From NCBI GenBank assembly GCA_021847795.1, contig JAJZPZ010000014.1:1-38192 (forward strand): a stretch of DNA of 38,192 nt, read 5' to 3'. Shown here piece after piece: positions 9,793 through 26,317 of this stretch. The position numbers and the translations under genes are program-made. The notes under the pieces were generated by a model, which saw nothing but the letters and a program-made list of their open reading frames with translations, ran no database searches and was not told where the DNA came from. The number at the start of each line of letters is the position of its first letter. The stretch's first letter is position 1. Source of the stretch: Nitrospirota bacterium (GTDB lineage: Bacteria > Nitrospirota > Thermodesulfovibrionia > Thermodesulfovibrionales > Dissulfurispiraceae).

Positions 9793-9822
9793 TTGAGAAT
9801 TTGTCAGACAATGGTATATAAT
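9793..9822 (+). promoter_or_regulatory. Sigma-70 promoter of the TPR-barrel/FecR operon with an internal palindrome
   Basis: TTGAGA (9793-9798), an 18-base spacer, and a perfect TATAAT (9817-9822). The spacer holds the 11-base palindrome TTGTCAGACAA (9801-9811), positioned where a repressor would block polymerase. Transcription would start about 40 bases before the gene. Confidence 0.6.
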
Positions 9823-9870
9823 GCAGCACCTTTTTGGGGAAGGCAATCAAGTAAACGGTGTAGAGGTCTT

Positions 9871-11436
9871 ATGAAAAAAATCATTTATTTATTTTTTATT
9901 CTTTTTTTCGCGTTCGCGCCCTTGCATGCTGCATATGCTGAAGATGGTCTTATCGAAAAAGGCCTTGCAGAGATCAAGAAGGATAATTACGAAGAAGCAG
10001 TAGACTATTTTTCCCGGGCAAGGGCCCAGGACCCCCGGTCTTCCCTTGCAGCCTTCTACCTCGGCCTTGCTTATAAACAGTCCGGCAGCTACAAGGACGC
10101 TGTGAAGCAGTACAAGGATGCGCTTGCGCTTACTCCCCCTGTCCTCGATTCCTACACCGAGCTTATCGAGGTGCTGTATAACATGAATGAACTGAAAGAG
10201 GCGAAGGAGTGGATTGCAGCGGCTGAAAGGGCAAAGATCAAGCCTGCGCAGGTGGCCTTCCTGAAAGGACTGGTGTTTGCGAAGGAAGACAACAATGACT
10301 CCGCAGTAGAGGCTTTCAAAAGCGCCCGGGAACTCGACAAATCCCTGGCCCAGGCAGCGGATTTCCAGATTGCCATGGCCTATGCAAAAGAGCGGAGGCT
10401 CAAAGAGGCAAGGGAGAGCCTGAAAGCGGTCATCACGCAGAACCCGACCTCGGAGATCGCCTCCTTTGCAAAAGAATATGAGAAATCCATTGCCAGGGTC
10501 ATTGAGTCATACAAGGCATGGCACTTTGCCGTAGGCGCGGCATACCAATACGATGATAACGTTGTTTCCAAACCTACTGCCGCAATCGGTATCCCGGTTG
10601 TCGACCAGCCGGTAAAGGGCAAAGGAGACAGCGCCCTGGTAAATACTTTCAGGGCTGATTATACGCCTCTTTTGGGCGGCCCCTGGAGCTTCAGCGGGCA
10701 GTATAATATCTTCAGCACTACCTATTTTAAGAACTACAGCATGGATATCCTCTCCCATTCTCTTTCACTGATCCCGGGCTACAATTTCAAGAAGGGAGCG
10801 GTCACTCTCCCCTTAACTTATAACCATGTATGGCTGAATGAGCGCGAGTATATGGGCGTCGTCTCAGCGAAGCCCACGCTCACTGCCATAATCGCGCCCA
10901 GGCACATAGGCCAGCTTTCCGTGGGATATGGGAAAAGGGACATGCTCCGGCCCACTACTCCCGAAGAAGACAGGGATGGCGATATCTACAGCATAGGCGC
11001 CGGCTACATTTACCCGTTCTCCGAAGGCAAAGGCATGTTCAACCTGAGGTATGAATACACCAAAGAGAATACCGACGGGGTGAACTGGGACAATTCGGGC
11101 AGCAGGCTCAGCGCAGGGCTCCTGGCGCCCCTCAGGGACAAGGTGAGCCTTACGGTTTCGGGTGATGCCACGCTGCAGTATTACGATCACCTGCACACGA
11201 TTACGGTATCAAATGCCGATGCCGTTGCAATAGGATTGCTTCCCGTTCCCGGATATCCCGATACCCCGACCAGGAGGCGGGACAAGGTATATACCGGCAT
11301 GGTGGGCATTACCTGGGAACTGCTGAACAATCTGAATCTGAATGTGAATTATTCATATACAAGGGCTGATTCCAATTTCGCAATTTATGATTACAAGAAG
11401 AACGCCTACATGGCCGGCCTGGAGTACAGCTTTTAG
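9871..11436 (+). CDS. TPR protein with C-terminal outer-membrane beta-barrel
   Basis: A 522-residue exported protein. It starts with a signal peptide (MKKIIYLFF..., probable cleavage after AAYA, residue 23). About residues 24-215 form TPR repeats, for example KDNYEEAVDYFSRARAQDP and GSYKDAVKQYKDALALTP. From about residue 217 onward, alternating aromatic/polar strands end in a terminal Phe (AGLEYSF), typical of an outer-membrane barrel. The layout and size resemble Slam/DUF560-type proteins, which move partner proteins across the outer membrane; I infer but cannot prove that homology. AGAGG precedes the ATG. The large FecR-domain protein follows after nine bases with an AGGAGG overlapping the stop codon, so the two are co-translated and may be exporter and substrate. 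Confidence 0.75.
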   Translation: MKKIIYLFFILFFAFAPLHAAYAEDGLIEKGLAEIKKDNYEEAVDYFSRARAQDPRSSLAAFYLGLAYKQSGSYKDAVKQYKDALALTPPVLDSYTELIEVLYNMNELKEAKEWIAAAERAKIKPAQVAFLKGLVFAKEDNNDSAVEAFKSARELDKSLAQAADFQIAMAYAKERRLKEARESLKAVITQNPTSEIASFAKEYEKSIARVIESYKAWHFAVGAAYQYDDNVVSKPTAAIGIPVVDQPVKGKGDSALVNTFRADYTPLLGGPWSFSGQYNIFSTTYFKNYSMDILSHSLSLIPGYNFKKGAVTLPLTYNHVWLNEREYMGVVSAKPTLTAIIAPRHIGQLSVGYGKRDMLRPTTPEEDRDGDIYSIGAGYIYPFSEGKGMFNLRYEYTKENTDGVNWDNSGSRLSAGLLAPLRDKVSLTVSGDATLQYYDHLHTITVSNADAVAIGLLPVPGYPDTPTRRRDKVYTGMVGITWELLNNLNLNVNYSYTRADSNFAIYDYKKNAYMAGLEYSF

Positions 11437-11445
11437 GAGGTGTTT

Positions 11446-14400
11446 ATGAGGCATATCACAGGGCATAAGGCATATTTTCTCTATTCATGTCTGGTCCTTT
11501 TTGCATTTTTTCTCCCTTTCCTCACCGCTTCTTTTGCGGAAGGGGCCGAGGCAGTAGGAAAGATAAGCGCTGCAGAAGGTCAGGTGGATGTGCTCAGGGG
11601 AGGCAAGCTTCCTGCTGTCCCTGCAAAGGCGGGGGATGCCCTGTATGTAGGAGATATCGTAAGGACCAAAAGCGAATCCAAGGCAGAGGTCAAGTTCCAT
11701 GACGGCAATGTGCTGAGGGTCGCCCAGCGGAGCAGGATCGATGTGAGCGAGTACAGGTCGGGCGCCAAGGGTGTTATCACCCTGACGCGGGGCAAGGTCG
11801 AGGCAGTAGTGGAAAAGAAGACTGCCCAGCGCATGGCCTTGCCCAAGGGAGAGCACCGCTTCGAAATCCGCACGCCCAGCGCGGTTGCGGGTGTGCGGGG
11901 CACGGACTTTTTCGTGTTCCAAAACAGGAACATCACCGGGGTTGCGGTCAAAGAGGGATCGGTTAGTGTTGTCAACCCCAGGTTCCCTGACAAACCTGTG
12001 GTGGTTACCGCGGGCAATATGACTGTTGTTGCCCCGCAGACGCCTCCACAGGCCCCGAGAGCTATGACTGAAACGGACATGAAGTCACATGAAAAGGATG
12101 TTGCCCCGGACAAGAAGAAGTCCGATGATAAACAGAAGTCTGATGATAAAAAGAAAGCGGATGCCGGCAGCAGCGATGACAAGTCTTCCGGAGGGAAATC
12201 GGAAGGTAAGACTGCTGAAGGAAACGGCAAAGGCGATAATCAGAAGAACGACAAATCGCAAGACACCGCAAAAGAGGGTGGAGACAAGTCAGGCGGAGAG
12301 CAGGCCAATGGAGGGGGAACGTCCTCCGGAAGCGGCTCGGGTGATTCAGGATCATCGACGACAAGCTCTTCTTCCGGTTCATCTGGTGCAGGGCCGGAAA
12401 GCTCAGGGCTTGCTACTCCTGTCTCATTATCAACAACTTCAGGGACATCAGAGGGAATCTCTTCAGGAGGAACTGCATCTACAGGCGGCATATCGGCTGA
12501 TCTTGCAACCGGAGGAATGGATTTATCTGGTGGTTTGCTGAGCGGCCCTTTATCCCCCACAGGGTCACTTATTCCCGGGGGGACGACCACTAGCACTAGC
12601 ACGTTTACTCAAAACAACAATATTTATACTCCGCCAATAACGGAGACCACGGCTGCTGGTATTGTTACGGACACAACTGCTCCAAAAGTTACTATAGTAG
12701 ATAACCCGAGTTCAGTAACGGATCAGAGTTCTGCTGTTTTTTCTTTCACTAGTAATGAAGCTGTAATCTTTGAATATCGCTTAGATAACGGGACATGGCT
12801 CTCAACCGGAGCAACATTGAATCTGGCGGGACTGAGTGAGGGGGGGCATACTATTGAGGTCAGGGCGACAGATCTTGCCGGCAACGTTTCCTCTGTGATC
12901 AGCTTTAACTGGACCACGAATTACCTCGCTGGGCTCATCAGTGGGACTCTTCTATCAGGTTTCCAAACGGCAATGTTGTCCTTAGGGCTGAACTCGAGCA
13001 GCCTTCCTTCGGGCTGGTCAACTGAGTCCTACGCGGTAAGCCGTACGGATGCGAATGGCGATTTAATAGGCATTATCGACAACGATTATATATATGATAT
13101 GATATACGCCCCTGAGATAAAGAGCTCTAATTCCAACGAATACTATTCAAATGACAGTTTTGGGGTATTCATAAATTCCCCCGACTTCCTGAATTTGAAT
13201 GTTAAGAGTTTCTTCGATAATAGAAGCGACAGCAACTTCAGACTGGTCGAATTGAAAACCGCAGGTCTTGCCTTCGGTCTGTGGCAGCTCTCATCTGCTG
13301 GAACATTTGATCCATCGAAAGAGTCGAATTCATGGGCCATGGGGACCAGCGCTTACCTCGATTTTAATGCCCCGGGGGTGATTGACAGCATCCTCCATAT
13401 CTTCACGCTGGGCGATTTATGGTCGGATTCGCTTGGATTGCTCCATGGCAAAAGCGACGGCGTCTTCGGTTCTATTAATAATGGAAAGGTGCGCATCCTT
13501 ACCGGAGATACAATGGGAACGCTTGATAAGACTTTGAAAACCTTCGATGCCTTATCCGTAGGTACATGGTTCGACGCAGCGATGTTTTACGATGTGATGA
13601 CCGGCGTCGGCAGCGGAGATGTTACTATCTCTAAGCTCGCTGACCTGGCTTTCCCCACGGTTGCGGTGGGCACGCCTGTTAAGCTTTCCTCCTGGGCAGC
13701 GCAGGCTGCGAGCAGCGCCGGCGGAAGCGGTACTCTCTCTGTCAATATCGGAGATACGAAAAAGATACGGTTTTATTCGCGCAGTTCCACAGCCGCCCCG
13801 AGCATCTGGGTGACTAATGACGTTACCGGAGCATACACTATTGCATCCGGAGCAGTAGGAGCAGGGTGGAGGGTCGGCATAAGCGATAACGCTACTGCGG
13901 GAAGCGCATCACTTTTCGGGGAATTTACCGTCCTGGGATGGAGTGCGAATAAATGGATTGCCGACGTGGAGTTTATCGGAGGATTGAGTGCGGACAATAA
14001 GCAATACTCGTTTTACGGGGTGGCTGCCGGTGGCTATATTGAAACCACCGCCTCAGATGGCACGTTCTCAGGCACAGCCGCAGGACTGGTAAACCCGGTA
14101 ACCGCCTTGTCGAAAATCAACGGCGTGCAGCTTCAGGAGTGGGACGGCACAACAAACCCTCTTGTCACTGAGGGCACCCTTTACGGTGTCATGGGAGCGG
14201 TGTCTTTGTGGAATTCCGATGTGGCGAACAAGGGAAACAATATGGAATTCAACCTTGTAGGGTTGCATTCCAACATTGCTACTCCGGCAAATAATCATAT
14301 CTGGCAGATGAACGGAGTAGTGCCCTATAACTACACTACGGGAACAGCAACCACGACTGATGGCGGGTCCTATTGGGGCTACCTGGGCGGCTACCAGTTG

Positions 14401-15894
14401 CAGGTTAGTGGCGGCCTGACCAGCAATGGACTGGAAGCGCTGTTTACGGGCCTTTATCTTGACCCCAATGGTAACATTGGAATATTGAGCGGCAGCAATC
14501 ATAAGGACGACTGGTACTCGGGAAGGATAGACAGCAACGGCTACTGGGATGCGGATATCGACATCGATACAGCAAAGCTCGGGACAAATTCCAACCCATC
14601 AATAAACTATACGAACTTCACTGCCTCTATCTCTAATGTTGCCGCTGTTTCTGTTTCTGCAACAGGAGGCGGAACATTTACCATCAATTTTGCGATAACT
14701 GGTGACCCCTCTAATGACCTTGTCAGGGTGACAGCGAACGGTGTCACGTATAACGCAAACCTTACTCCAGGAAATTATGGGGCTGATTCTCTGGCGTATG
14801 AGCTGCAAAAACAAATCCAGAAAGCGCTCGATGCGACCGGCGCCAGGTATAAGGTCAAGGTCTGGTATGATTTCACGAACAACTATTTTGTTATTGAAAA
14901 CGACGCATCAAATCCAACGGCAATAACTGTCTTTGATTCAGGATCTACTGCCAGTGAATTCAGTTATTCGTCGCATACTATTAACCCAGATGGAACTCCG
15001 GTCAATGGCAGCGCGGTTTCGTTGTCCACCAGCACGAACAACGGTATTACTGTTAATTCGGCATCTACGTATCAGTCTGCAAATATTACCGGTCAGCCCT
15101 GGGGCATCTGGACATCGACTCTTGTGGGTTCGACGAGCGGCACCATCAGCAATACCTGGACCCTGCCCCTTGACATGAATACCGGAGCCGATGTGATCAG
15201 GCATATGGAAGTGACTGGTTATCAGTGGTCGCCCGACGGCATTAAGGGATATGTGAAGGGATATTGGGGTGACATTAAGGCTGCAGACCCGGCGGCAACA
15301 GCGACAACGGGCATTTACGTCGGCAATATCGCGGGCGTTTTTAACGCAAACACCTGGCAGGCCACGGCAATGGGCTCATGGATGGAGACTACTGCTTTCC
15401 TGACAAATGCCTGCCCCGGCGGCGCCTGCAATACCACCGGGTCGAGCCTGACAGACGCCCAGAATCAACTCCAAAAGCTGGGGATCCCTGTTGTTGAAGT
15501 GGGCAGGGCAAATCTGACAGGAACGTATTCGGGAATGGGATCATTAACAGTAAATTTGAATAATGTGATATTTTTTGCTCCGGCCACAGGTCAGCAGCCC
15601 AGCATATGGGCGGCTGGGGCCGGGAATGTCACTGGTTCTTATGATAGCGCTTATTCGTATGGAGGCAAAACGGTGACGATGACCGGAAATGGAATAAACG
15701 CAGATTTGAATGTGAATCAGTGGAGTGGGGGTAAATGGCTGGGAGCTGTTTCCAATTCTGTTGGCTCACCGGGCCCTTATACCGGCACGGGAACTATGAG
15801 TGGTATTACTGTTAACCAGATAAAAGGGGCTGCAGCAGGTACCTACAGTGGCGGCAGTATTACTTCAGGTACTGCAGCGGGCACAGTGAAGTAA
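11446..15894 (+). CDS. Very large exported FecR-domain protein
   Basis: A 1482-residue surface or periplasmic protein. A signal peptide (hydrophobic about 10-30) precedes a FecR domain (about 37-195: GQVDVLRGG, GDIVRT, LRVAQRSRIDV, IRTPSAVAGVRGTDF). Residues 205-310 are a low-complexity Lys/Asp/Ser/Gly linker. An Ig-like segment follows at about 408-490 (FEYRLDNGTW, IEVRATDLAGNVSS). The remainder is Ser/Thr/Gly/Asn-rich beta structure. Two related blocks, near residues 755-880 and 1362-1480, both have a G-[ST]-L-x-VN strand and PSIW. A segment at about 1063-1205 resembles flagellin/hook inserts. The ATG at 11446 is chosen for its AGGAGG five bases upstream, over a GTG two codons earlier. A strong terminator follows. 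FecR domains elsewhere often sit with CHASE2 cyclases, as here. Role inferred: adhesin or envelope scaffold. Confidence 0.8.
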   Translation: MRHITGHKAYFLYSCLVLFAFFLPFLTASFAEGAEAVGKISAAEGQVDVLRGGKLPAVPAKAGDALYVGDIVRTKSESKAEVKFHDGNVLRVAQRSRIDVSEYRSGAKGVITLTRGKVEAVVEKKTAQRMALPKGEHRFEIRTPSAVAGVRGTDFFVFQNRNITGVAVKEGSVSVVNPRFPDKPVVVTAGNMTVVAPQTPPQAPRAMTETDMKSHEKDVAPDKKKSDDKQKSDDKKKADAGSSDDKSSGGKSEGKTAEGNGKGDNQKNDKSQDTAKEGGDKSGGEQANGGGTSSGSGSGDSGSSTTSSSSGSSGAGPESSGLATPVSLSTTSGTSEGISSGGTASTGGISADLATGGMDLSGGLLSGPLSPTGSLIPGGTTTSTSTFTQNNNIYTPPITETTAAGIVTDTTAPKVTIVDNPSSVTDQSSAVFSFTSNEAVIFEYRLDNGTWLSTGATLNLAGLSEGGHTIEVRATDLAGNVSSVISFNWTTNYLAGLISGTLLSGFQTAMLSLGLNSSSLPSGWSTESYAVSRTDANGDLIGIIDNDYIYDMIYAPEIKSSNSNEYYSNDSFGVFINSPDFLNLNVKSFFDNRSDSNFRLVELKTAGLAFGLWQLSSAGTFDPSKESNSWAMGTSAYLDFNAPGVIDSILHIFTLGDLWSDSLGLLHGKSDGVFGSINNGKVRILTGDTMGTLDKTLKTFDALSVGTWFDAAMFYDVMTGVGSGDVTISKLADLAFPTVAVGTPVKLSSWAAQAASSAGGSGTLSVNIGDTKKIRFYSRSSTAAPSIWVTNDVTGAYTIASGAVGAGWRVGISDNATAGSASLFGEFTVLGWSANKWIADVEFIGGLSADNKQYSFYGVAAGGYIETTASDGTFSGTAAGLVNPVTALSKINGVQLQEWDGTTNPLVTEGTLYGVMGAVSLWNSDVANKGNNMEFNLVGLHSNIATPANNHIWQMNGVVPYNYTTGTATTTDGGSYWGYLGGYQLQVSGGLTSNGLEALFTGLYLDPNGNIGILSGSNHKDDWYSGRIDSNGYWDADIDIDTAKLGTNSNPSINYTNFTASISNVAAVSVSATGGGTFTINFAITGDPSNDLVRVTANGVTYNANLTPGNYGADSLAYELQKQIQKALDATGARYKVKVWYDFTNNYFVIENDASNPTAITVFDSGSTASEFSYSSHTINPDGTPVNGSAVSLSTSTNNGITVNSASTYQSANITGQPWGIWTSTLVGSTSGTISNTWTLPLDMNTGADVIRHMEVTGYQWSPDGIKGYVKGYWGDIKAADPAATATTGIYVGNIAGVFNANTWQATAMGSWMETTAFLTNACPGGACNTTGSSLTDAQNQLQKLGIPVVEVGRANLTGTYSGMGSLTVNLNNVIFFAPATGQQPSIWAAGAGNVTGSYDSAYSYGGKTVTMTGNGINADLNVNQWSGGKWLGAVSNSVGSPGPYTGTGTMSGITVNQIKGAAAGTYSGGSITSGTAAGTVK

Positions 15895-15920
15895 GGTTTT
15901 CGTGTAAGGCACAATTTTCT

Positions 15921-15951
15921 AAAGGCGGGATTATGAAATCCCGCCTTTTTT
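15921..15951 (+). terminator. Strong Rho-independent terminator after the FecR-domain gene
   Basis: A 12-base stem (15921-15932 with 15937-15948, core GGCGGGATT/AATCCCGCC), a four-base loop and a T run. It separates the barrel/FecR pair from the Skp-cyclase genes transcriptionally. Confidence 0.9.
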
Positions 15952-15952
15952 G

Positions 15953-15961
15953 TGCTATATT
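15953..15961 (+). promoter_or_regulatory. Possible extended -10 promoter for the Skp-like gene
   Basis: TGCTATATT, an extended -10 element, immediately follows the terminator T run and precedes the Shine-Dalgarno by about 18 bases. No -35 is seen. It is proposed mainly because the terminator leaves the next gene needing its own start. Confidence 0.3.
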
Positions 15962-15990
15962 TCCTGAAATTATCTGAAAAGGAGCGTATG

Positions 15991-16509
15991 ATGAAAAAGT
16001 TTTTGATAACGGTTATCGCACTGTCCTGTGCGTTTGCTTTTACCTGTTCTCCCTCACATGCCGAAACCCTGAAAATAGGTATTTTCGATCTGCAGGCCAT
16101 TATGGCTAAATCCAAAGTGATCCAGGGGTATCGCCAGAACATCGGCAAAGAGGCCGAAGCAGACCGGAAGGTGTTCGCTGATAAGCAGGCCTCCGCCAGG
16201 CAGACAGAGGACAGGCTGAAGAAAGAGGGACAGAAGCTTTCCGCAGGCGAGAGAAAGCTGCTGGAGGAAAAACTTGGAAACGAGGTGAAGGAACTGAAGC
16301 GGCTCAAGGAGGACATGGAGGCCTCTTTGCAGAAAAAAGACAGGGAACTCACCCAGCAGGTCCTCAGGGAAATAGAAAAGGTCGTAAAAGGAATCGCGGA
16401 CAAAGAAGATTACACGATTGTATTCGAGAGGAGCGCGGCAGGAGTCGTGTATCTCAAGGATTGGGTTGATATTACGGAAAAGGTCATCACGGAGTATGAC
16501 AAGCGCTGA
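15991..16509 (+). CDS. OmpH/Skp-family periplasmic chaperone
   Basis: A 172-residue exported protein that probably holds unfolded outer-membrane proteins in the periplasm as a trimer. The signal peptide ends at SHA/ETL (residue 24). The mature start LKIGIFDLQAIM and closing YTIVFERSAAGVVYL...DITEKVI form the small beta body. The charged middle (about 55-140, KLGNEVKELKRLKEDM) is the long coiled-coil tentacle of the Skp fold. Two ATGs are adjacent; the second (15991) has AAGGAG at six bases and is preferred. The gene sits apart from the usual bamA-lpxD locus. It lies between an outer-membrane/surface pair and two cyclases, so it may be a dedicated chaperone for the upstream barrel; that is inference. 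Confidence 0.85.
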   Translation: MKKFLITVIALSCAFAFTCSPSHAETLKIGIFDLQAIMAKSKVIQGYRQNIGKEAEADRKVFADKQASARQTEDRLKKEGQKLSAGERKLLEEKLGNEVKELKRLKEDMEASLQKKDRELTQQVLREIEKVVKGIADKEDYTIVFERSAAGVVYLKDWVDITEKVITEYDKR

Positions 16510-16533: not shown

Positions 16534-16592
16534 GGGGACTGTCCCTATTTACGGACGGAGGGAACCGGAGTCGTAGAATAGGGACTGTCCCC
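16534..16592. repeat. REP-like double palindrome (GGGACTGTCCC)
   Basis: The two 16-base arms GGGGACTGTCCCTATT (16534-16549) and AATAGGGACTGTCCCC (16577-16592) are inverted with a single central mismatch. Each arm contains the perfect 11-base palindrome GGGACTGTCCC. The pairing of palindromes in head-to-head arrangement resembles REP/BIME elements. It fills most of the 100 bases between the Skp-like gene and the first cyclase. Confidence 0.7.
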
Positions 16593-16609: not shown

Positions 16610-19600
16610 TTGAACGACGTGCCGGGAAAAAAAGAAAAACAGAGCAAACGAACCTTCTCATCCCGAAAAGCGCTCCAGGGACTGCTCATTGGAACAGCAA
16701 TGAGCGCTCTTGCGCTCTTCATAGGGCTTTCCGGGTTCGGCAGGAACCTCGAGCTGATGTCCCTTGATCTGAGATACCGGATGCGGCCCCGGATCGCGAC
16801 CCTCCCTGAAATCGGCTTTATCGATTACGACGACAGTTCCCTGGAGGTCTTTGGTGAATGGCCGTGGCCGCGCTTCCGGCATATCGCCCTGGTGAACACC
16901 CTTGATTTCTACAAAGCCCGCATGGCCGGGTTTGATGTTTTTTTCGTTGAAAATGAAAATACCATATTCCATCCCGACCGGCTGAAAAAGGCCCTCGCCT
17001 CCCGTCCCGGGACCGCTGCTGCCGGAAATCCCGTCAACATGCAGGACCTGATCGATAATTCCTTCAGAAATTACGACAGCGAGTTCGCCTATGCCATGGA
17101 AGAGGCGAACAACATTTATCTCGCTTATTTTACGTTCCCTCCGGATGAGAAGGTCGCTGCAAAAGGCCTCGCAGGAATACGGGAAGATACGCGGGAGAGG
17201 CGGAAAAGGCTTTCAGGCCTGAAGAAAATGGCAATGGAGGAAGTCGAGAAGACCTTCCTGCCCCTGCGGGGCGGCGAGGAGAAAGATTTATACAAGGTTG
17301 TCGAAGTCGATCCACCGCTGCCTGATTTCGTCCGCACCGCCAAAGGCGTCGGGTTTGCACAGCCCGGGGTTGACGACGATTCCGTAGAGAGGAGCTATAT
17401 CCTTGCGCGGTATTACAATAACCGGATGATCTACCCGATTGCGTGGAAAATGCTCTCGGACATCATGGATTTCAAGCTGAACGAGGTTGTCTTTTATCCC
17501 GGGAAATACGCCCTGATCAGAAACGCCCTGGATTACAAGACAAAGCAAAGGAGGGATGTCCGGATCCCGATAGACGACCATTACCAGATGCTCGTGAACT
17601 GGGCAGGGGATTTTCGTAATACCTTTGTGCATGTCCCCTTCCGGCTGATTTCGACGTACCACGCCTACAACACCGCAAAAGAGATCGCGCGCAAATACGG
17701 GAATGGTGACGGGGCCGGTTTGCCTGTGCTGAAGGACCGCATTTCCGAGGCCATCATGGAACAGAGCATGGTGACGACAAAGGAAGCGGATGCCATTTCA
17801 AAGGAAATCGCCGCAGCGCAGTACATAACGAAGCTCTCCGATAAAGGCCTGTCCAGGGATCAGATATTCCGGGAGCTGGGGGGAACTGTAGACCGCGCCC
17901 TGCTGCAGCAGGTCTTCAGCATTGTTTCAGCGGGCCGGGACATGGAGAAGGCCTTGGCATCGGACCCGTCGCTGACCTTTGAGCAGTTCTCCGGCAATCA
18001 GCAGCAGGCAGAAGGCGGTTCCGGGGCACATCTCAGGGAGGTGTTCAGGAACATGAAGTTTTTTTCGGATAAAAAGCGGCTGGAAGACGCGAGGCCATAC
18101 TATTTTCCTGCTGCCGCCAAAGTGCTCAGCAACGGCGCCTGGGTAAGTTTTTCCCCTGTTGATCTCGAAAACAAGATCTTTATGGTGGGGCTGACCGGAA
18201 CGAACACCATTGACTTGAACCCGACCCCGTTTGAGGAAAATTGTCCGCTCGTTGCGTACCATGTGAATGCCCTGAACACGGTCCTTACGGAGAATTTCCT
18301 GCACTATCCACCTGGATACTATAAATACATTGCAACCGTATTCCTTGCAGTGCTGGTGGGCATCGCGGGCGTCTCGCTCAGCCTGTCCGTTTCTCTCCCC
18401 CTGATTGCCCTTGCTGCGGGAGGGTACCTGTTTTCAACCTACAAAATCTGGGAAACCCGGGGCTATTGGCTGGACTGGGTGGCGCCGGCCGGCGGCATGG
18501 CCCTTACCTACGTGACTGTTGTTGCCGTGCAGTTTATCGGGGCCTTCCGCGAAAAAAAGAAGGTGAGGGGCATCTTCTCCACCATGGTTTCTCCCGCGGT
18601 CCTGAAGGTGATGGAGGAGAACCCCGACAAGTTTTCCCTTACCGGCGAGCGCAAGGCAGCCACCACGTTTTTCTCCATGGTCAATGGCATGGGGGGTGTG
18701 ACAAAGACCATAGCCCCTGATGAACTGGCGAGCCTGTTGAGCATTTACCTTACCCCGAACAGCGAGATAATCATGGACTACGACGGATACATAGACAAGT
18801 ACGAGGGGCATGTGATCATGGCTGATTTCGGGGCGCCCCTGGATGATGAGGGCAATCCCTGGAAATGCGCCTTTGCCGCTCTTGAGCAGCAGATGGATGT
18901 GGAGGCCTTCAAATATTTTGTCAGGGCCAAATACGGCCTGGAAGTCGGCGTTTCCATGGGATTCAATTACGGCTACGTATCGGCCGGGAACATGGGGTCC
19001 GAGAGGAAATTCCAGTATACGGTAATGGGAGACCCGGTCAATGTCGCGGCAAGGTTCATGGCGTCGAACTACATCTATAATTCCTTCTCTCCGATCACCG
19101 GGGAGGAAACCCTTCCCGCAATAGCGGATTATGTGCACCTGCGTCCTTTAGACAAGCTGCTCCTCAAAGGCAAGACAAAGCCCACAGCTATTTACAATGT
19201 GCTCGGGTGGAAGCCGGACGCCTACCTGAAGCTGCGGGGCAGGCGTCCTGTCCCTGAATTCCTGGGCTCCCTATGGGCGAAATGTCCGCCTGAGAAGATC
19301 TTCGGCTATCACAGGCAATGGGAAAGAAAGTATGAGCAGACAGGGCATCCGACGGCTGCAGCCTTGCAGAAGTTCTTCGGGAATTCTCTTGACCCGGCAA
19401 AAGACCTCCTGGTCCTTGGATGGAAGCGTGAAATCGCTGCGCATAACGGGAGTATTGAAGCAGTGAAGGCCGAAGTCCGGAAGTCCCTGGGCAGGCACAT
19501 CGACTTCCTTCCCCTTAAAAAGGGGAGCGGTTTCAGGGAGGTCATGGAAAACTGGGAGGAAAACCTCACCGCGGCGATCGGGGCAGTAAAGGAGAACGGC

Positions 19601-20140
19601 CTGCAGAAGGGCAGTGACAGGGCCGTTGCGCTTTCCCTGGAGCAGAGCGCCCACAGCGGGCAGATACTGCTGAATAAGATAGCAGTGATAAAGATGCGCC
19701 TTGAGCAAGGGACTGTCCAGGGTGGAGTTGATGAAAGAATAGAGGAAGCCATGCAGGAAATACGGGACTTTCTCCCGGGTGCGCATGAAGCCGTGGTCAG
19801 CCGGCTCGACCAGGCACTGCTCGAAAGCCGGAGGAGATACAACGGCGCTGCCGGTGAATTTTTCAAATCGATAAAAGAGAAAAAAGAGGAATACCATGAG
19901 ATGATGTCCCTGGCCGGCGCCCCGGCCCCTGATGAGCTGAAGGCAGCGCGCTCTTTTGAAGAGGGGCTGAACCTTTACCGGGAGCGGGCATGGGAGGCTG
20001 CGCTCGAAAAGTTCGAGGCTGCCCGGAGACTGTCCTCCGATAAGGGCCCTGCCGAATCCTTCTGCCTGAGGATCAACGGCTATAAGACAACTCCTCCAGG
20101 CGAAAACTGGCAGGGAGAATTCGTGCAGACAAAGAAATAG
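16610..20140 (+). CDS. CHASE2-domain class III nucleotide cyclase homologue lacking metal aspartates (C2-like subunit)
   Basis: A 1176-residue membrane protein: one N-terminal helix (about 22-42), a large extracytoplasmic CHASE2 sensor domain with insertions (about 45-555), three membrane helices (about 565-645), a class III cyclase domain (about 680-860) and a C-terminal region with a TPR-like segment ending in the PPGENWQGEF type of tail found in this family. In the catalytic domain the first metal Asp is Met690 (FSMVNG) and the second is His734 (KYEGH). The base-recognition Lys730 and Thr804 remain, as do the transition-state Asn811 and Arg815 (VNVAAR). Alone it should be inactive. The start is a TTG with weak ribosome site and is uncertain. 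The next cyclase begins five bases after its stop and has the reciprocal defects. Confidence 0.88.
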   Translation: MNDVPGKKEKQSKRTFSSRKALQGLLIGTAMSALALFIGLSGFGRNLELMSLDLRYRMRPRIATLPEIGFIDYDDSSLEVFGEWPWPRFRHIALVNTLDFYKARMAGFDVFFVENENTIFHPDRLKKALASRPGTAAAGNPVNMQDLIDNSFRNYDSEFAYAMEEANNIYLAYFTFPPDEKVAAKGLAGIREDTRERRKRLSGLKKMAMEEVEKTFLPLRGGEEKDLYKVVEVDPPLPDFVRTAKGVGFAQPGVDDDSVERSYILARYYNNRMIYPIAWKMLSDIMDFKLNEVVFYPGKYALIRNALDYKTKQRRDVRIPIDDHYQMLVNWAGDFRNTFVHVPFRLISTYHAYNTAKEIARKYGNGDGAGLPVLKDRISEAIMEQSMVTTKEADAISKEIAAAQYITKLSDKGLSRDQIFRELGGTVDRALLQQVFSIVSAGRDMEKALASDPSLTFEQFSGNQQQAEGGSGAHLREVFRNMKFFSDKKRLEDARPYYFPAAAKVLSNGAWVSFSPVDLENKIFMVGLTGTNTIDLNPTPFEENCPLVAYHVNALNTVLTENFLHYPPGYYKYIATVFLAVLVGIAGVSLSLSVSLPLIALAAGGYLFSTYKIWETRGYWLDWVAPAGGMALTYVTVVAVQFIGAFREKKKVRGIFSTMVSPAVLKVMEENPDKFSLTGERKAATTFFSMVNGMGGVTKTIAPDELASLLSIYLTPNSEIIMDYDGYIDKYEGHVIMADFGAPLDDEGNPWKCAFAALEQQMDVEAFKYFVRAKYGLEVGVSMGFNYGYVSAGNMGSERKFQYTVMGDPVNVAARFMASNYIYNSFSPITGEETLPAIADYVHLRPLDKLLLKGKTKPTAIYNVLGWKPDAYLKLRGRRPVPEFLGSLWAKCPPEKIFGYHRQWERKYEQTGHPTAAALQKFFGNSLDPAKDLLVLGWKREIAAHNGSIEAVKAEVRKSLGRHIDFLPLKKGSGFREVMENWEENLTAAIGAVKENGLQKGSDRAVALSLEQSAHSGQILLNKIAVIKMRLEQGTVQGGVDERIEEAMQEIRDFLPGAHEAVVSRLDQALLESRRRYNGAAGEFFKSIKEKKEEYHEMMSLAGAPAPDELKAARSFEEGLNLYRERAWEAALEKFEAARRLSSDKGPAESFCLRINGYKTTPPGENWQGEFVQTKK

Positions 20141-20145
20141 ACTCT

Positions 20146-23100
20146 ATGAAGATGAAGATAGTTCATGCAAAGCTTAAAACGGCGCTGAAGAAGGCGGTGC
20201 TTTCGGGAACGGGCATTGCGCTCCTGATCTCGGCAATGGTTTTCGCTGGTGTCTTCGATAAAATCGAGCTGAAGATCCTGAATACGGCTTTCCGGGAACG
20301 CAAACCCATCCAAAAGAGAACGGACATCATCACCATTGATATCGATGACAGCGCGGTGGGCACAATCGACAGATGGCCCTGGTCCTGGGACAAGCATGCC
20401 CTGCTGCTTGATTTCCTGACCATGTACCAGGCCCGCACCGTAGCGTTCATGGATATGGATTTCTCAAAAGAGATTCCCTTCGGCTTTCCCCTGAAGACTG
20501 TCGAGAGTTACAAGGGGATGCTCCAGTCCATGGCCGCATCCAAGGAGCCCCCGGGCCGCATCCTTTCCGTTCTGCCTGATTTTAATGCGGCCTTTTACAG
20601 CAGCCTGCGGAAAAACGGGGAAGCCTGCTTTACAGTCGGCTTCAAAATCCCGGAAGCTGCCGGAGGTGGGAAAAGCTCGTTGCAAACGGCTGAAACCAAT
20701 GCAGCCCTGTACTCGGATCAGAAAAAGGAGGGCATCCGCCTCCTGAAAGAGAGTATCGGTGTGCCCGCCGCACCGGCATATAGACCCGGCAGTTTCCCTG
20801 TCTCGACGGATGTGCTGCCCCTTGTCCCGGATATCCTGCAGTACTCTTCGTGTTCCGGTTTCAATGCGGTGGTGAGGGAGCGGGACGGCGCTGTATACAA
20901 GTATCCGCTCATGACCTACTATCGCGGCAGCTTATATCCCTCTGTCGGGCTGCAGATAGCCCGGAAATATATGGATGACGCGGAAGTGAAGATCAAGGAC
21001 GGAGAGTATATAGAGTTGCGGAACAAGGCCGGGCGCGTGAGAATCCCGGTCAACCGCGCCGGCGAGATGTATATCAACTGGCCCGGAGCTTATGGCGAAT
21101 CCTTTGTGCATCTTCCCTTTAACATGGTCGCCATGTTCATGGGCTACCAGATGGCAAAGGACGAACTGGCCGCCCACTCCCGGGAAGAACTCATGAAAGA
21201 CCCCATGGCCCTGGGCCAGGTCATTATGCAGAAGCTGGCGGACTCGCGGCTCGTGCCCGATGACATGGGCAATGAAATAAGCGCCGTCACCATTATTTCG
21301 GCATTGGCCGAGCATGCCCTGGAGCAGAAAAAATACCGGACGGCAGAGGAAGTGCTTTCCGCTGTCGGCATGGTTGATCCGAAGGACGAGGTCTGGCTCG
21401 GGATCGTCAGGCAGATCTGTTTCAACAATTACCTCCTGGAATCCTATCAGTCTTCCGGGAAGTTGCCTGCTTTTGAAGCTGCGATAAAGGGGGCGGGCAT
21501 CACCCTGAAAAAAGAAAAAGAGCCGCAATTCCGCGACTCCTACAACACGATGGCCTATTTCATAGAGAAAAACCTGGTCCCTGACGTCCGGCCTTTGTAT
21601 TTCCCCCAGGCCCGGATCTCCGGCCCCGGGAAAAAGGAGCTTTCCATTACGCCGCTGTTCTTTAAGGACAAGATCGTCTTTTACGGGCTGACGGCAACAG
21701 GGCTGGCTGTGCAGACTGCATCTCCCTTTGCTAAAAAGCACGACATGCTCGACCTGGCGCCAAGCGTATTGAACACCATTCTTACAGGGCAATTTATCCG
21801 GGAGCTGCCCCCCGGCCTGAACTATGTGGTCATATGGGCGTATGTTCTCATCGTTCTGCTCTGCGTACTGCTGTCGTCGCCGCTTCCGGGCCTTGCGTTT
21901 GTCTGCCTGTTTGCAGGGGCGCATCTCGGTATTGCCTGGTTCTCTTTTTCCGAAAGGGGCTATATCCTGCCGGTATCGCCGCCCCTGGCCGCGCTTGCCT
22001 CTTCATACCTTCTTGCTGTTGTGTACCGTTATTTCCAGGAGCAAAGGGAAAGGCGGAAGGTCAGGAACATGTTCTCCACCATGGTTTCCCCGGAGGTCCT
22101 GAGGATCGTGGAGAATAACCCCGACAGCTTCAGGCTGGCAGGGGAAAAGAGGGAGGCAACGCTCTTTTCTTCCGACGTTTCCGGCTTTACAACGATATCA
22201 GAGGGAGTAACGGCCCGGGAGTTGGCAAATATCCTGAACATCTATCTTACCCCGATGAGCAACATTATCATGTCCTATGGCGGCTATGTCGATAAGTATG
22301 AGGGTGATGCCATCAAGGCGGATTTCGGCGTGCCCCTGGATGATCCCGGCCATAGCTGGAAAGCCTGCTTTTCCGCCTTGTACCAGCAGGAGGAACTCAA
22401 GGTGATACAGCGGATGATCCTGCTGAAGTACGGGGTGAAGATAACCGCCAGGATGGGCATCAACACGGGAACGGTATCAGCGGGAAACATGGGCTCGGAG
22501 CGGCGCATGCAATATACGGTCATGGGCGATGCCGTGGCCCTTGCAGAGGAACTGGAGCCTGCCAATAAGATTTTCGGGACATGGATTGCCATAGGTCCCG
22601 AAACATACGGGCAGGCCGGGAATTATATCGAAACCAGGCGCCTTAACAACCTGGTTGCAGGCGCTGCAGGACATTCCATTCCTGTGTACGAACTGGCGGG
22701 CTGGAAAAAGGAGAAGTTCCTGGAATACTGGGCCGGCAAGCCGGTCCCCGAACTTGCCCTGGAGTCCCTGAGAAAAATGCTTCCCGAGAAGGTCCTTGCA
22801 TACCATGAATTCTACCAGGAGAAGAACCTGCCCGAATCCCCTCTGCTGAAGGACTTCAGGGAACTCTTTTCGGGCCTGAGGGGGCCTGCGGTCGAGTATA
22901 TGAAAGTGAACAATGTCAGGAGCGTCCTGGCTATCAGGGAGGAACTGAAACAGCTTATGCATGATCTCGGGGCGGATGAGCAGCATGCGGTGAGCGCAGG
23001 AAAAGAAGAGTGGGAAGGGGTAGCGCTGCAATGGAAACGGGACCTGAAGCAGTGCTCCTCAGTGAGACGGATGCTGAAGGAAAAGATCACAAAAGAGGAG

Positions 23101-23595
23101 CATGACCGCTTTCTGAACGTGACCGACGTCCTGGAAAAGAGTGTGGAGTGCATTTACAAGCGTATTACCTGCGCAGAACGCAACGATCCCGCAGCCCTGG
23201 AGATGTCGGAGCATCTGAAAGAGCTTGTGTGCGGCAGGGGACTGCCTGAACCGGCAGATACCGGGTCCCTTTCCGCAAGAAGCGCCTCCCTGGAAAGCCG
23301 GATCAACAGCCGCCTTGCCGCATTTGCCGAGGGGCTGAGGCCCCGGGCCGCAGAATACCATGCCTTGATTTCCGATTTCTGTGTGGCGCCGGAAGGGAAG
23401 AGAAAGGTGATGGAACTGTACAGGCAGGGACAGGAGCTATATCTCGAAAAAGAGTGGGAGCCGGCAGCAGAAAAAATAAAGGAGGCCCTTGCCCTCATGC
23501 CCGATGACGGCCCCTCTGCGAAGCTCCTGGAAAAGATAAAAGAACTGCAGCAGGAACCTCCGGGAGAGGGTTGGGACGGCACATGGGGGGAGTAA
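20146..23595 (+). CDS. CHASE2-domain class III nucleotide cyclase lacking transition-state Asn/Arg (C1-like subunit)
   Basis: A 1149-residue paralogue of the preceding protein with the same plan: N-terminal helix (about 17-35), CHASE2 periplasmic domain, three membrane helices (about 560-640), cyclase domain (about 665-850), and a TPR-like C-terminus ending PPGEGWDGTWGE. Both metal aspartates are present, Asp677 in FSSDVSGFTT and Asp721 in KYEGDAI, with Lys717 and Thr791. At the transition-state position, however, VNVAAR is replaced by VALAEE, so Asn becomes Ala798 and Arg becomes Glu802. A homodimer should have little activity. Pairing with the upstream subunit would build one complete site, as in mammalian C1/C2 adenylyl cyclases. 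The residues suggest ATP over GTP, but bacterial Lys/Thr pairs leave some doubt. Confidence 0.9.
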   Translation: MKMKIVHAKLKTALKKAVLSGTGIALLISAMVFAGVFDKIELKILNTAFRERKPIQKRTDIITIDIDDSAVGTIDRWPWSWDKHALLLDFLTMYQARTVAFMDMDFSKEIPFGFPLKTVESYKGMLQSMAASKEPPGRILSVLPDFNAAFYSSLRKNGEACFTVGFKIPEAAGGGKSSLQTAETNAALYSDQKKEGIRLLKESIGVPAAPAYRPGSFPVSTDVLPLVPDILQYSSCSGFNAVVRERDGAVYKYPLMTYYRGSLYPSVGLQIARKYMDDAEVKIKDGEYIELRNKAGRVRIPVNRAGEMYINWPGAYGESFVHLPFNMVAMFMGYQMAKDELAAHSREELMKDPMALGQVIMQKLADSRLVPDDMGNEISAVTIISALAEHALEQKKYRTAEEVLSAVGMVDPKDEVWLGIVRQICFNNYLLESYQSSGKLPAFEAAIKGAGITLKKEKEPQFRDSYNTMAYFIEKNLVPDVRPLYFPQARISGPGKKELSITPLFFKDKIVFYGLTATGLAVQTASPFAKKHDMLDLAPSVLNTILTGQFIRELPPGLNYVVIWAYVLIVLLCVLLSSPLPGLAFVCLFAGAHLGIAWFSFSERGYILPVSPPLAALASSYLLAVVYRYFQEQRERRKVRNMFSTMVSPEVLRIVENNPDSFRLAGEKREATLFSSDVSGFTTISEGVTARELANILNIYLTPMSNIIMSYGGYVDKYEGDAIKADFGVPLDDPGHSWKACFSALYQQEELKVIQRMILLKYGVKITARMGINTGTVSAGNMGSERRMQYTVMGDAVALAEELEPANKIFGTWIAIGPETYGQAGNYIETRRLNNLVAGAAGHSIPVYELAGWKKEKFLEYWAGKPVPELALESLRKMLPEKVLAYHEFYQEKNLPESPLLKDFRELFSGLRGPAVEYMKVNNVRSVLAIREELKQLMHDLGADEQHAVSAGKEEWEGVALQWKRDLKQCSSVRRMLKEKITKEEHDRFLNVTDVLEKSVECIYKRITCAERNDPAALEMSEHLKELVCGRGLPEPADTGSLSARSASLESRINSRLAAFAEGLRPRAAEYHALISDFCVAPEGKRKVMELYRQGQELYLEKEWEPAAEKIKEALALMPDDGPSAKLLEKIKELQQEPPGEGWDGTWGE

Positions 23596-23666: not shown

Positions 23667-25454
23667 TTATGATTCCGCCAGGGTGTTTTCCACTACCTGG
23701 GCAAGTGAAATGACGCCTTTGAGCGCTTTGTCGATGGCTTCCTGCCGAAGGGTCATCATGCCTGTTTCCATGGCTACCCTTCTTAACTCTTCCGTTGTCG
23801 CCCCTCTGATGAGGAGGTTCCTGAATTCCCTGTTCACCAGGAGCATTTCGTAAATTCCCGTACGCCCTTTTTCCCCTGAGCCGTCGCATACCTCGCAGCC
23901 TTTCCCCCGGTAGAGGGTGGCGCCTGCCTTGATGTCACCCTTTGACAGCGCCTCGTCATCTTCTGTGGCGATGTAGGATTCCTTGCACTTTGAGCATATC
24001 CTCCTGGCGAGTCTTTGTGCGCATACCAGGACAATGGAGTCCGCTATGAGGTATGGTTCGATCCCCATCTCTATGAGCCTTGTCACCGTTCCGACTGCGT
24101 CGTTCGTGTGAAGTGTGGAGAAGACCATGTGGCCTGTGAGGGACGCCTCGACAGCGGCCTTTGCGGTTTCCAGGTCTCTTATTTCTCCTATCAGTATGAC
24201 ATCCGGGTCGTGCCTCATAAAGGCCTTTAACGCCTTTGCAAAGGTATAGCCGGTAGCGGGATTTACACTGCTCTGGATGATCTGCCCGCCCAGGGTGGTT
24301 TCAACCGGGTCCTCAGCGGTCACTATCTTTAAGTCGGGCGTATCAATGGTTTTCAATGCGGCAAAGAGGGCTGTCGATTTTCCGCTTCCCGTGGGCCCGA
24401 CATGGAGCATGATCCCGTACGGCACTTTGATCGCCTCTCTGTACAGGTTCATGCAATGATCGTTGAAGCCCAGCATGTCTATGGTCAGCACATTGCCCGA
24501 TTTGTCTAGAAGTCTCATGACCACGTCCTCTCCGAAAGGAGTGGGCACGGTTGAGACGCGAAGGTCAAGCTCGTAAGAGGGATTGTATTTTGTGAAATCA
24601 ATTCTGCCGTCCTGGGGCACGCGCCTTTCGTCGATCCTCAGGTCTGCCATGATCTTGTAGCGCGTGATGAGCGCGTCCTGGGCGTATTTGGGAACACGCA
24701 TGACTTCCTGGAGGTCGCCGTCAATGCGGTATCTGACGCGCAGGTTGTAAAGTGAGGGTTCGATATGGATGTCGCTGGCCCTCTTGTGGACCGCCTCTTC
24801 CACGATCCTGTTGGCGAGCATGACTACAGGGGCGCTGTTTTCAGTGGCTTCTTCCTGCTTTACTTCCGCAAGCTCGACTTCGCTCCTCATGGATTCTGCT
24901 ACGTTATCCAGCAGGTTCCCGAGGCCGAGGTTGTCTTTGTCCTTTTCTTTCGACTTTTCCTTGAGGCCGTAAAATTTATCGATTGCCGCGAAGAGTTTGT
25001 CGGCGGTGGTCACGGTGACCTTTACGTTCTTGACATTATAACGCGCGTCTTTACAGAAACGGGTGACTTCATCAAGGGCCATAAGGTCCCTGGGCTCTAC
25101 CATTGCGACTGTCAGGACAGGCTCCTGGTATTTGATGGGCAGCACGCGCAGATGTTTTGCGTATGCCGGCTTCAGGATCTTCAGCAGTTCGGACTGTATC
25201 GGGATGGCGCTGATGTCCATGAACTCGTATCCCAGGGATTCTGCAAGGGCAGCGGAGACCTTGTCGGCAGGCACGCCGGACTCCATGAGGAGCTGGTCAA
25301 GGTTTTTCCGTTCTTTTGCCACTCTTGAAATCAGTTCCTGCAGCTGCTCGGTGGTGACGAGTCCTTTTTCTATTGCAAGTTCTTCAAGACTCTTCTTCGG
25401 GGCTTTTTTCGCATCGTGCGCGCATTTGGGGTCCAGTGGTTTTTTTACTTCCAT
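23667..25454 (-). CDS. PilB/GspE-family secretion ATPase (type IV pilus or type II secretion)
   Basis: Hexameric cytoplasmic ATPase that powers pilin or pseudopilin assembly, 595 residues. The N-terminal MshEN-type domain (about 20-165) is followed by a charged linker and the ATPase core. The core has SDIHIEP, the Walker A loop GPTGSGKST (near 353-361), an Asp box (TAEDPVE), Walker B ILIGEIRD and the His box STLHTNDA. The zinc tetracysteine (CSKC near 487-490 and CEVC) is the mark of PilB/GspE rather than the retraction ATPase PilT. MshEN domains often bind c-di-GMP, but the RLG and LG residues of the two repeats look replaced (KSLEEL, NLDQLL). The second of two adjacent ATGs is better spaced from GAGG. 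The stop of the upstream GAF gene overlaps this start, giving translational coupling. Confidence 0.93.
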   Translation of the reverse strand: MEVKKPLDPKCAHDAKKAPKKSLEELAIEKGLVTTEQLQELISRVAKERKNLDQLLMESGVPADKVSAALAESLGYEFMDISAIPIQSELLKILKPAYAKHLRVLPIKYQEPVLTVAMVEPRDLMALDEVTRFCKDARYNVKNVKVTVTTADKLFAAIDKFYGLKEKSKEKDKDNLGLGNLLDNVAESMRSEVELAEVKQEEATENSAPVVMLANRIVEEAVHKRASDIHIEPSLYNLRVRYRIDGDLQEVMRVPKYAQDALITRYKIMADLRIDERRVPQDGRIDFTKYNPSYELDLRVSTVPTPFGEDVVMRLLDKSGNVLTIDMLGFNDHCMNLYREAIKVPYGIMLHVGPTGSGKSTALFAALKTIDTPDLKIVTAEDPVETTLGGQIIQSSVNPATGYTFAKALKAFMRHDPDVILIGEIRDLETAKAAVEASLTGHMVFSTLHTNDAVGTVTRLIEMGIEPYLIADSIVLVCAQRLARRICSKCKESYIATEDDEALSKGDIKAGATLYRGKGCEVCDGSGEKGRTGIYEMLLVNREFRNLLIRGATTEELRRVAMETGMMTLRQEAIDKALKGVISLAQVVENTLAES

Positions 25455-26317
25455 CATATCCTCGTAAAAATGAGAATCAGCTTTCTTGTTTTCCCTTTTT
25501 CATCGAGGTAAGGAATGATCTTTACCTCAAGCACTGACAGCTGCACGATCATTTTGTACCCTTTTACCATGACATCGTTGATCTTCTCTTCCAGTTCCGA
25601 GCCCAGGAAGCTCGGGAATACGTCAAAGAGGTTCTCCCCGGTCATGGATTCGATCGTGTGCCTCATGCCGCTCATCACTTCCATGAATTTGCTTGCCGAG
25701 GTTATCCTTCTTTTTGTGTCGAGTATGCAGATGCCTTCTTCGATATCGTCTATGATGTATTCCCTGAGTTTCTTTTCCTCTTCGATGGCCTGGTAGAGAA
25801 GTGCGTTGTTTACTGCGATGCCCAGCAGGTACGCAAGCTGCTCCATGGTGTTCACGTCCAGGTCCGAAAACCCACCGGGCTTGTTAAGGGCCTGGAATAT
25901 CCCGATAATCTCTTTCCCTGATTTTATGGGTATGGGGACCACCAGCACGCTTTCGGTCCTGTAGCCGCTCTTTTGGTCCCAGGACTTGTTGAAGGACAGT
26001 TCGCCGTCTATGCCCTGCAGTTCCCCGTCATCATAGGCGTCCCTGATATTTATGATCTTTTCCGTGGTGGCCGAGTAGCCTGCAAGACTGCTCTTCATGA
26101 TCGGCACCCGGATTTCCACAAGGTTTTCCGCCTGGAGGACCTTCGAGTACAGTTCATTGGTTTCCCTGTCGATCAGGTAAAGAGTGCACCTGTCGGCATT
26201 GAGGATGCAGCGTATCTCCCCGACCACATTGGTGAGTATCTCATTGATATCGAGCGTGGAGAGGATGGTGCTCAGGATATTGAAAAATTTGCCTGTCTCT
26301 ATATAAAGCTGTTCCAT
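25454..26317 (-). CDS. GAF-PAS sensor protein coupled to the pilus ATPase
   Basis: A 287-residue soluble protein. Residues 1-175 form a GAF domain (DINEILTNVVGEI, DRCTLYLIDRETNELYS, VLVVPIPIKSGKEIIGIFQALNK). A helical linker (YQAIEEEKKLREYIIDDI) joins it to a PAS-like domain (about 188-287: GICILDTKRRITSASKFMEVMSG). There is no kinase, cyclase or output domain, so it must act through a partner. The overlap with the ATPase gene start suggests it senses a ligand or redox cue for that machine. Pairing of GAF proteins with PilB-type ATPases occurs in other Gram-negatives, to my recollection. An extended -10 promoter lies just upstream. Confidence 0.8.
   Translation of the reverse strand: MEQLYIETGKFFNILSTILSTLDINEILTNVVGEIRCILNADRCTLYLIDRETNELYSKVLQAENLVEIRVPIMKSSLAGYSATTEKIINIRDAYDDGELQGIDGELSFNKSWDQKSGYRTESVLVVPIPIKSGKEIIGIFQALNKPGGFSDLDVNTMEQLAYLLGIAVNNALLYQAIEEEKKLREYIIDDIEEGICILDTKRRITSASKFMEVMSGMRHTIESMTGENLFDVFPSFLGSELEEKINDVMVKGYKMIVQLSVLEVKIIPYLDEKGKTRKLILIFTRI

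Follow-up and report, generated by a model that had tools for sequence, protein, structure and literature searches.

Two adjacent genes on the forward strand of the 38,192-nucleotide stretch of DNA analyzed here (hereafter, the window; contig JAJZPZ010000014.1 of Nitrospirota assembly GCA_021847795.1) encode large proteins, A and B, that each combine a CHASE2 sensor with a class III nucleotide cyclase domain (Table 1). Gene A begins at a putative TTG start codon. Both cyclase domains matched Guanylate_cyc (PF00211) above the curated Pfam cutoff, and both proteins were assigned to the CHASE2 sensors on the basis of the profile match and the transmembrane (TM) helices around CHASE2. Hydropathy placed one N-terminal TM helix in each protein (at about residues 21 to 44 in A) and a cluster of TM helices ahead of the cyclase domain, with which AlphaFold models agreed. 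These models (full length, single chain, 14-row alignments) were useful for domain layout and gave A and B long, helical C-terminal parts, that of B with a weak TPR match (Pfam) at its end. The model of B matched class III cyclases in the PDB, with low confidence in the catalytic part, and residues 787 to 866 of A had pLDDT values under 50. Because the catalytic domains were poorly modeled, the models were left aside for residue placement. The genome to which the window belongs (97.8% complete) had A and B as its only two Guanylate_cyc matches, together with eight cNMP-binding domain matches.

Table 1. Genes, domain matches, and active-site positions of the A/B locus (window coordinates)
Feature	Position	Strand	Description
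Protein A	16610..20140	+	1176 aa; CHASE2 plus class III cyclase domain; C2-like half, metal Asps absent
CHASE2 match in A	16712..17650	+	Residues 35-347; extracytoplasmic sensor; Pfam, E 3.5e-33
Guanylate_cyc match in A	18656..19060	+	Residues 683-817; domain extends to about residue 868
A Met690	18677..18679	+	First metal Asp position, lost; M/A/K/L/S/W across orthologs, never D
A His734	18809..18811	+	Second metal Asp position, lost; H 19, A 2, V 1, N 1
A Ser782	18953..18955	+	Arg of metal-side subunit lost
A Asn811 to Arg815 (NVAAR)	19040..19054	+	Ribose and triphosphate residues; Asn, Arg invariant in A
A Lys853	19166..19168	+	Triphosphate lysine; present in all A
Gap between A and B	20141..20145	+	Five bases
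Protein B	20146..23595	+	1149 aa; CHASE2 plus class III cyclase domain; C1-like half (metal Asps; without Asn/Arg/Lys)
CHASE2 match in B	20218..21327	+	Residues 25-394; Pfam, E 1.9e-28
Guanylate_cyc match in B	22150..22560	+	Residues 669-805
B Asp677	22174..22176	+	Metal ligand; invariant in B
B Asp721	22306..22308	+	Metal ligand; invariant in B
B Arg769	22450..22452	+	Arg of metal-side subunit; invariant in B
B Ala798 to Glu802 (ALAEE)	22537..22551	+	Neither Asn nor Arg present; Glu replaces Arg in 22/23 B rows

Two copies of GGGACTGTCCC, a near-palindromic, REP-like element, lie in the gap just upstream of the TTG of A (16534 to 16592); the window contains 3 matches to it, versus 0.32 expected. 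Farther upstream on the same strand (9793 to 16509) are genes for a TPR/SlipAM-like barrel protein, a 1484-aa FecR plus Ig-like protein, and an OmpH/Skp-like protein. FecR and OmpH genes occurred beside A and B in several representatives of the window's family, and FecR, OmpH, and TPR/barrel genes all occurred in one outer genus (L112). Their products are possible envelope partners of the sensor. As a defining part of the system, these upstream genes were rejected, being retained in the close family and that one outer genus only. Downstream on the opposite strand (23667 to 26317) are genes for a PilB/MshE-like ATPase with an MshEN domain and for a GAF-PAS protein, which adjoin A and B, in either orientation, in most family members.

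Class III catalytic sites lie at the dimer interface, with residues drawn from both chains. An earlier reading of this DNA (the sequence-only reading) had proposed that A and B have lost complementary parts of such a site and form a C1/C2-type heterodimer. Direct checking confirmed the coordinates, protein lengths, five-base gap, and all A and B residues that it quoted, including the Lys and Thr of base recognition in both proteins (Lys730 and Thr804 in A; Lys717 and Thr791 in B). Its assignment of the lost residues also held up: in alignments with solved class III cyclases (CyaB, Cya2, a Cya2 chimera, and others), Met690 and His734 of A coincided with the metal Asps, and Ala798 and Glu802 of B coincided with the Asn and Arg. 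The split proved to be wider than that reading had recognized, since two more positions are reciprocal. The triphosphate lysine position (Lys853 of A) is Gly in B, and the position of Arg769 of B is Arg in 23/23 B rows and Ser, Ala, or Thr in A. Thus, all eight catalytic positions are supplied across the pair (D, D, and R by B; K, T, N, R, and K by A). As judged from these alignments, the C1-type half is complete in B and the C2-type half is complete in A.

Orthologs were sought in relatives, GTDB genome contigs, and 396 Nitrospirota genomes. With the window proteins counted, A was represented by 23 sequences and B by 22 distinct ones; the homologs were 34 to 60% identical to the window proteins. 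Two families of one order contributed, namely, the GTDB family of the window and one that includes "Candidatus Magnetominusculus" and Magnetomicrobium. The others came from a second phylum, represented by locus L044 (labeled Hydrogenedentota) and one more genome of that phylum group (2/2 genomes carry A and B). Both metal Asps were absent from 23/23 A sequences, all of which retained the base-reading Lys and Thr as well as the Asn, Arg, and Lys. The 22 distinct B sequences all had the two Asps, the Lys, and Thr or Ser, lacked the Asn and Arg, and lacked the last Lys wherever the sequence reached that position. The Lys and Thr at the base-reading positions of A are those expected for an adenylyl cyclase, and an adenylyl rather than a guanylyl cyclase is therefore predicted. 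Co-conserved pairs with the same reciprocal substitutions, for which the sequence-only reading had called, were thus found in two phyla. Neither A nor B nor any ortholog had the complete single-polypeptide catalytic set of the homodimeric class III type. The sequence-only reading had named such a complete site in an orthologous pair as evidence against itself, and its core claim withstood this check. By contrast, the Asp, Asp, Asn, and Arg were all present in 76/76 related single cyclases, and the reciprocal-loss pattern occurred in 0/76.

A and B always co-occurred. Among the 396 Nitrospirota genomes, the 14 with A were identical to the 14 with B, and no orphan A or B gene was found. The division persists where the genes are unlinked: in genome G181, contig 13 carries A and contig 55 carries B, neither adjoining its partner, with Ser and Asn at the metal positions of A and Glu and Lys at the Asn and Arg positions of B. 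The B gene of another genome (G388) is truncated by a contig end. Across pairs, the A-to-B spacing ranged from -4 to about +116 bases; in many pairs, B starts 4 bases inside the A stop, and the value of about +116 was seen in one. Such spacing is typical of translational coupling, as far as gene positions indicate, though it is not constant. Given this range and the unlinked pair, the fixed stoichiometry that had been read from the five-base gap is not supported. In one relative (G012; L110:8180-11686), the B gene is interrupted by a single in-frame TAA near B residue 524, which may reflect a pseudogene, a sequencing error, or read-through.

The division was also evident when columns were chosen by their conservation in relatives. 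We took the 38 catalytic-domain columns that were at least 93% conserved among the 76 single relatives expected to be homodimers. Sixteen of the 38 were retained in both A and B, including the base-reading Lys and Thr. A alone lacked seven: the two metal Asps, the Glu at A817, and four positions in the loop after the first of these Asps. B alone lacked six: the Asn, the Arg, the Gly-Lys that follows the triphosphate Lys, and two more. Position 734 of A is not His in four pairs (a three-genome clade and G181), which have Ala, Val, or Asn instead. In these four pairs, position 798 of B is Arg, His, His, or Glu, versus Thr or Ala elsewhere, and in G181 position 802 of B is Lys in place of Glu. 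Only 3/138 little-varying B columns change in all four pairs. This covariation, which represents two evolutionary events and involves a B position that was among a few inspected, is consistent with inter-chain contact at the degenerate pocket, where His734 of A and Ala798 and Glu802 of B should lie.

A tree of 82 rows (IQ-TREE quick mode, SH-aLRT support, midpoint root, eukaryotic sequences left out) recovered A and B as monophyletic groups (SH-aLRT, 100 and 99, respectively) and as mutual sisters (98). Their nearest neighbors were single cyclases of Neomarinimicrobiota, and the second-phylum sequences branched near the base of both clades. Given this sister relation, a single duplication with subsequent reciprocal loss would account for A and B and is the simplest history suggested by the tree. 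The pair was not placed in the mammalian transmembrane adenylyl cyclase/soluble guanylate cyclase lineage, given that its best PDB matches and its neighbors in this tree (without eukaryotic sequences) were bacterial.

On this evidence, A and B very probably constitute an obligate heterodimeric class III adenylyl cyclase in which one site would bind ATP and the other is degenerate. Physical pairing, cAMP as the product, and control by CHASE2 are what we infer from the sequences. In each chain, an N-terminal TM helix would lead into CHASE2 on the extracytoplasmic side; three further TM helices would follow, then the cyclase domain in the cytoplasm, and finally a helical C-terminal region. Since A and B lack opposite halves of the active site, pairing is probably needed for one working site. 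On pairing, B would contribute both metal aspartates and the arginine (C1-like), and A would contribute the adenine-reading Lys/Thr and, to hold the ribose and triphosphate, the Asn, Arg, and Lys (C2-like). The symmetry-related pocket, formed by the Met/His of A and the Ala/Glu of B, would be incapable of catalysis, and A/A and B/B homodimers would be inactive. Because neither homodimer would have a complete site, cAMP is expected only when A and B are both made. Of the claims of the sequence-only reading, the C1/C2-type heterodimer is thus supported by the complementary residues and by co-occurrence, and a catalytically dead second pocket is likely; an allosteric role for that pocket was the alternative it offered, and a ligand may still bind there, since the base-reading pair is retained in all B. 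Its coincidence sensing of two periplasmic signals is supported no further than by the presence of two sensors; the CHASE2 domains may detect two ligands, a single shared one, or none, or may contact each other. A fuller scheme, in which an independently evolved C1/C2-type cyclase arose by duplication and reciprocal loss, the degenerate Lys/Thr pocket is allosteric, and two sensors and an internal ligand control one site, is put forward tentatively and seems to us less likely than the simpler proposal by a wide measure.

The Glu at position 802 of B (22549 to 22551), which replaces the catalytic Arg, lies in a motif, AEELEP, that is likewise nearly invariant. This near-invariance suggests that Glu802 is maintained by selection for a role outside catalysis.

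Several other explanations were considered. One variant, which overlaps the preferred explanation, retains the heterodimer but gives it another product or makes tuning by a ligand of the degenerate pocket its main role. The Lys and Thr (or Ser) in that pocket of all B and the near-invariant Glu802 would suit such a role; however, class IIIb adenylyl cyclases also carry Lys/Thr in the active site, and this variant is improbable. Less likely still is a rival in which B, by itself or as a homodimer, would be the sole enzyme, with low activity in spite of its missing Asn, Arg, and Lys, and A would be a regulatory pseudo-cyclase giving no catalytic residues. All B orthologs do have both metal Asps and the base-reading pair, but the five C2-type residues kept throughout the A sequences despite a lost metal half would be left unexplained, and Glu stands in place of the phosphate-binding Arg in nearly every B.

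We give slightly less credence again to the idea that both proteins are catalytically dead and form a non-enzymatic heterodimeric sensor that signals, for example, via the helical C-terminal parts. Each is a predicted pseudo-enzyme alone, and both have long helical C-terminal regions. A purely structural role could also explain why folded, non-catalytic domains are deeply conserved, a point against the heterodimeric enzyme. Nevertheless, a full catalytic set is present across the pair with each half invariant (23 A and 22 B), and this would be needless in a dead complex. The reading of the losses as drift, a frame or assembly artifact, or a local pseudogene pair has the in-frame stop in the L110 relative in its favor and retains almost no probability, as the open frames are intact and the same losses recur in two phyla and in independent assemblies; it is refuted by the conservation of the reciprocal losses.

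A close parallel to the heterodimeric cyclase proposed here is found in mammalian transmembrane adenylyl cyclases, in which the metal Asps likewise come from one half (C1), the Lys, base reader, Asn, Arg, and Lys come from the other (C2), and the second pocket is degenerate. In those enzymes, however, the halves are fused in one chain with two sets of six TM helices, whereas A and B are encoded by two genes and have CHASE2 sensors, and the metal half (B) also retains the base Lys/Thr. The nearest kin of A and B in sequence are bacterial CHASE2-type cyclases, not mammalian C1/C2. Single CHASE2-type adenylyl cyclases of Neomarinimicrobiota, Lentisphaerota, Spirochaetota, and Nitrospirota share the membrane-plus-cyclase core and fold. 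Unlike A and B, they have the Asp, Asp, Asn, and Arg together, are expected to be homodimers, and are usually about 700 to 780 aa long, versus about 1000 to 1200 aa for A and B with their long C-terminal helical extensions.

Soluble guanylate cyclase (sGC) resembles the pair in that separate genes encode a subunit with the metal Asps and an Arg (alpha) and one with the base reader, Asn, Arg, and Lys (beta). Its homodimers are inactive because the catalytic residues are divided between the subunits, and Arg574 of alpha sits on the metal-bearing subunit (PMC3591389). By motif and spacing, Arg574 appears to be equivalent to Arg769 of B. In contrast to A and B, sGC is eukaryotic and cytosolic, senses NO through heme, and has GTP-specific Glu/Cys, whereas the Lys/Thr of A and B predicts ATP. 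The mutations D300A and R376A in Rv1625c (M. tuberculosis Cya) hit, by family alignment, the positions of His734 of A and Glu802 of B. Each of these mutants is inactive alone, and the two are active together (PMC4821796). By analogy, A and B are best read as a natural form of this complementation, although the Rv1625c mutants were engineered from a homodimeric enzyme, whereas the A/B pair is natural, conserved, and marked by multiple further losses. The rhodopsin-guanylyl cyclases of chytrid fungi, RGC1/2 with NeoR, likewise come from distinct sensor-cyclase genes and must form heterodimers to be active (PMC7655827), but they are eukaryotic. RGC1/2 retain all catalytic residues (PMC8815786), and the cause of their heterodimerization must therefore differ from that in A and B.

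According to published accounts, bacterial class III cyclases homodimerize, which has been termed a fundamental difference from eukaryotes (PMC4821796; PMC9552081). In the open-access literature, we found no report of a natural bacterial heterodimeric class III cyclase and, for CHASE2 with FecR or with Nitrospira, no earlier report of such a pair. A natural bacterial two-gene, reciprocally degenerate cyclase is thus probably new, the kind of enzyme itself being known. If the proposal is true, bacteria independently evolved the C1/C2 arrangement, in which one site is active and the other degenerate. In the two-gene A/B system, mutating single genes would allow the contributions of both sites and both membrane sensors to be told apart, and the pair would offer a model for duplication leading to obligate heterodimers.
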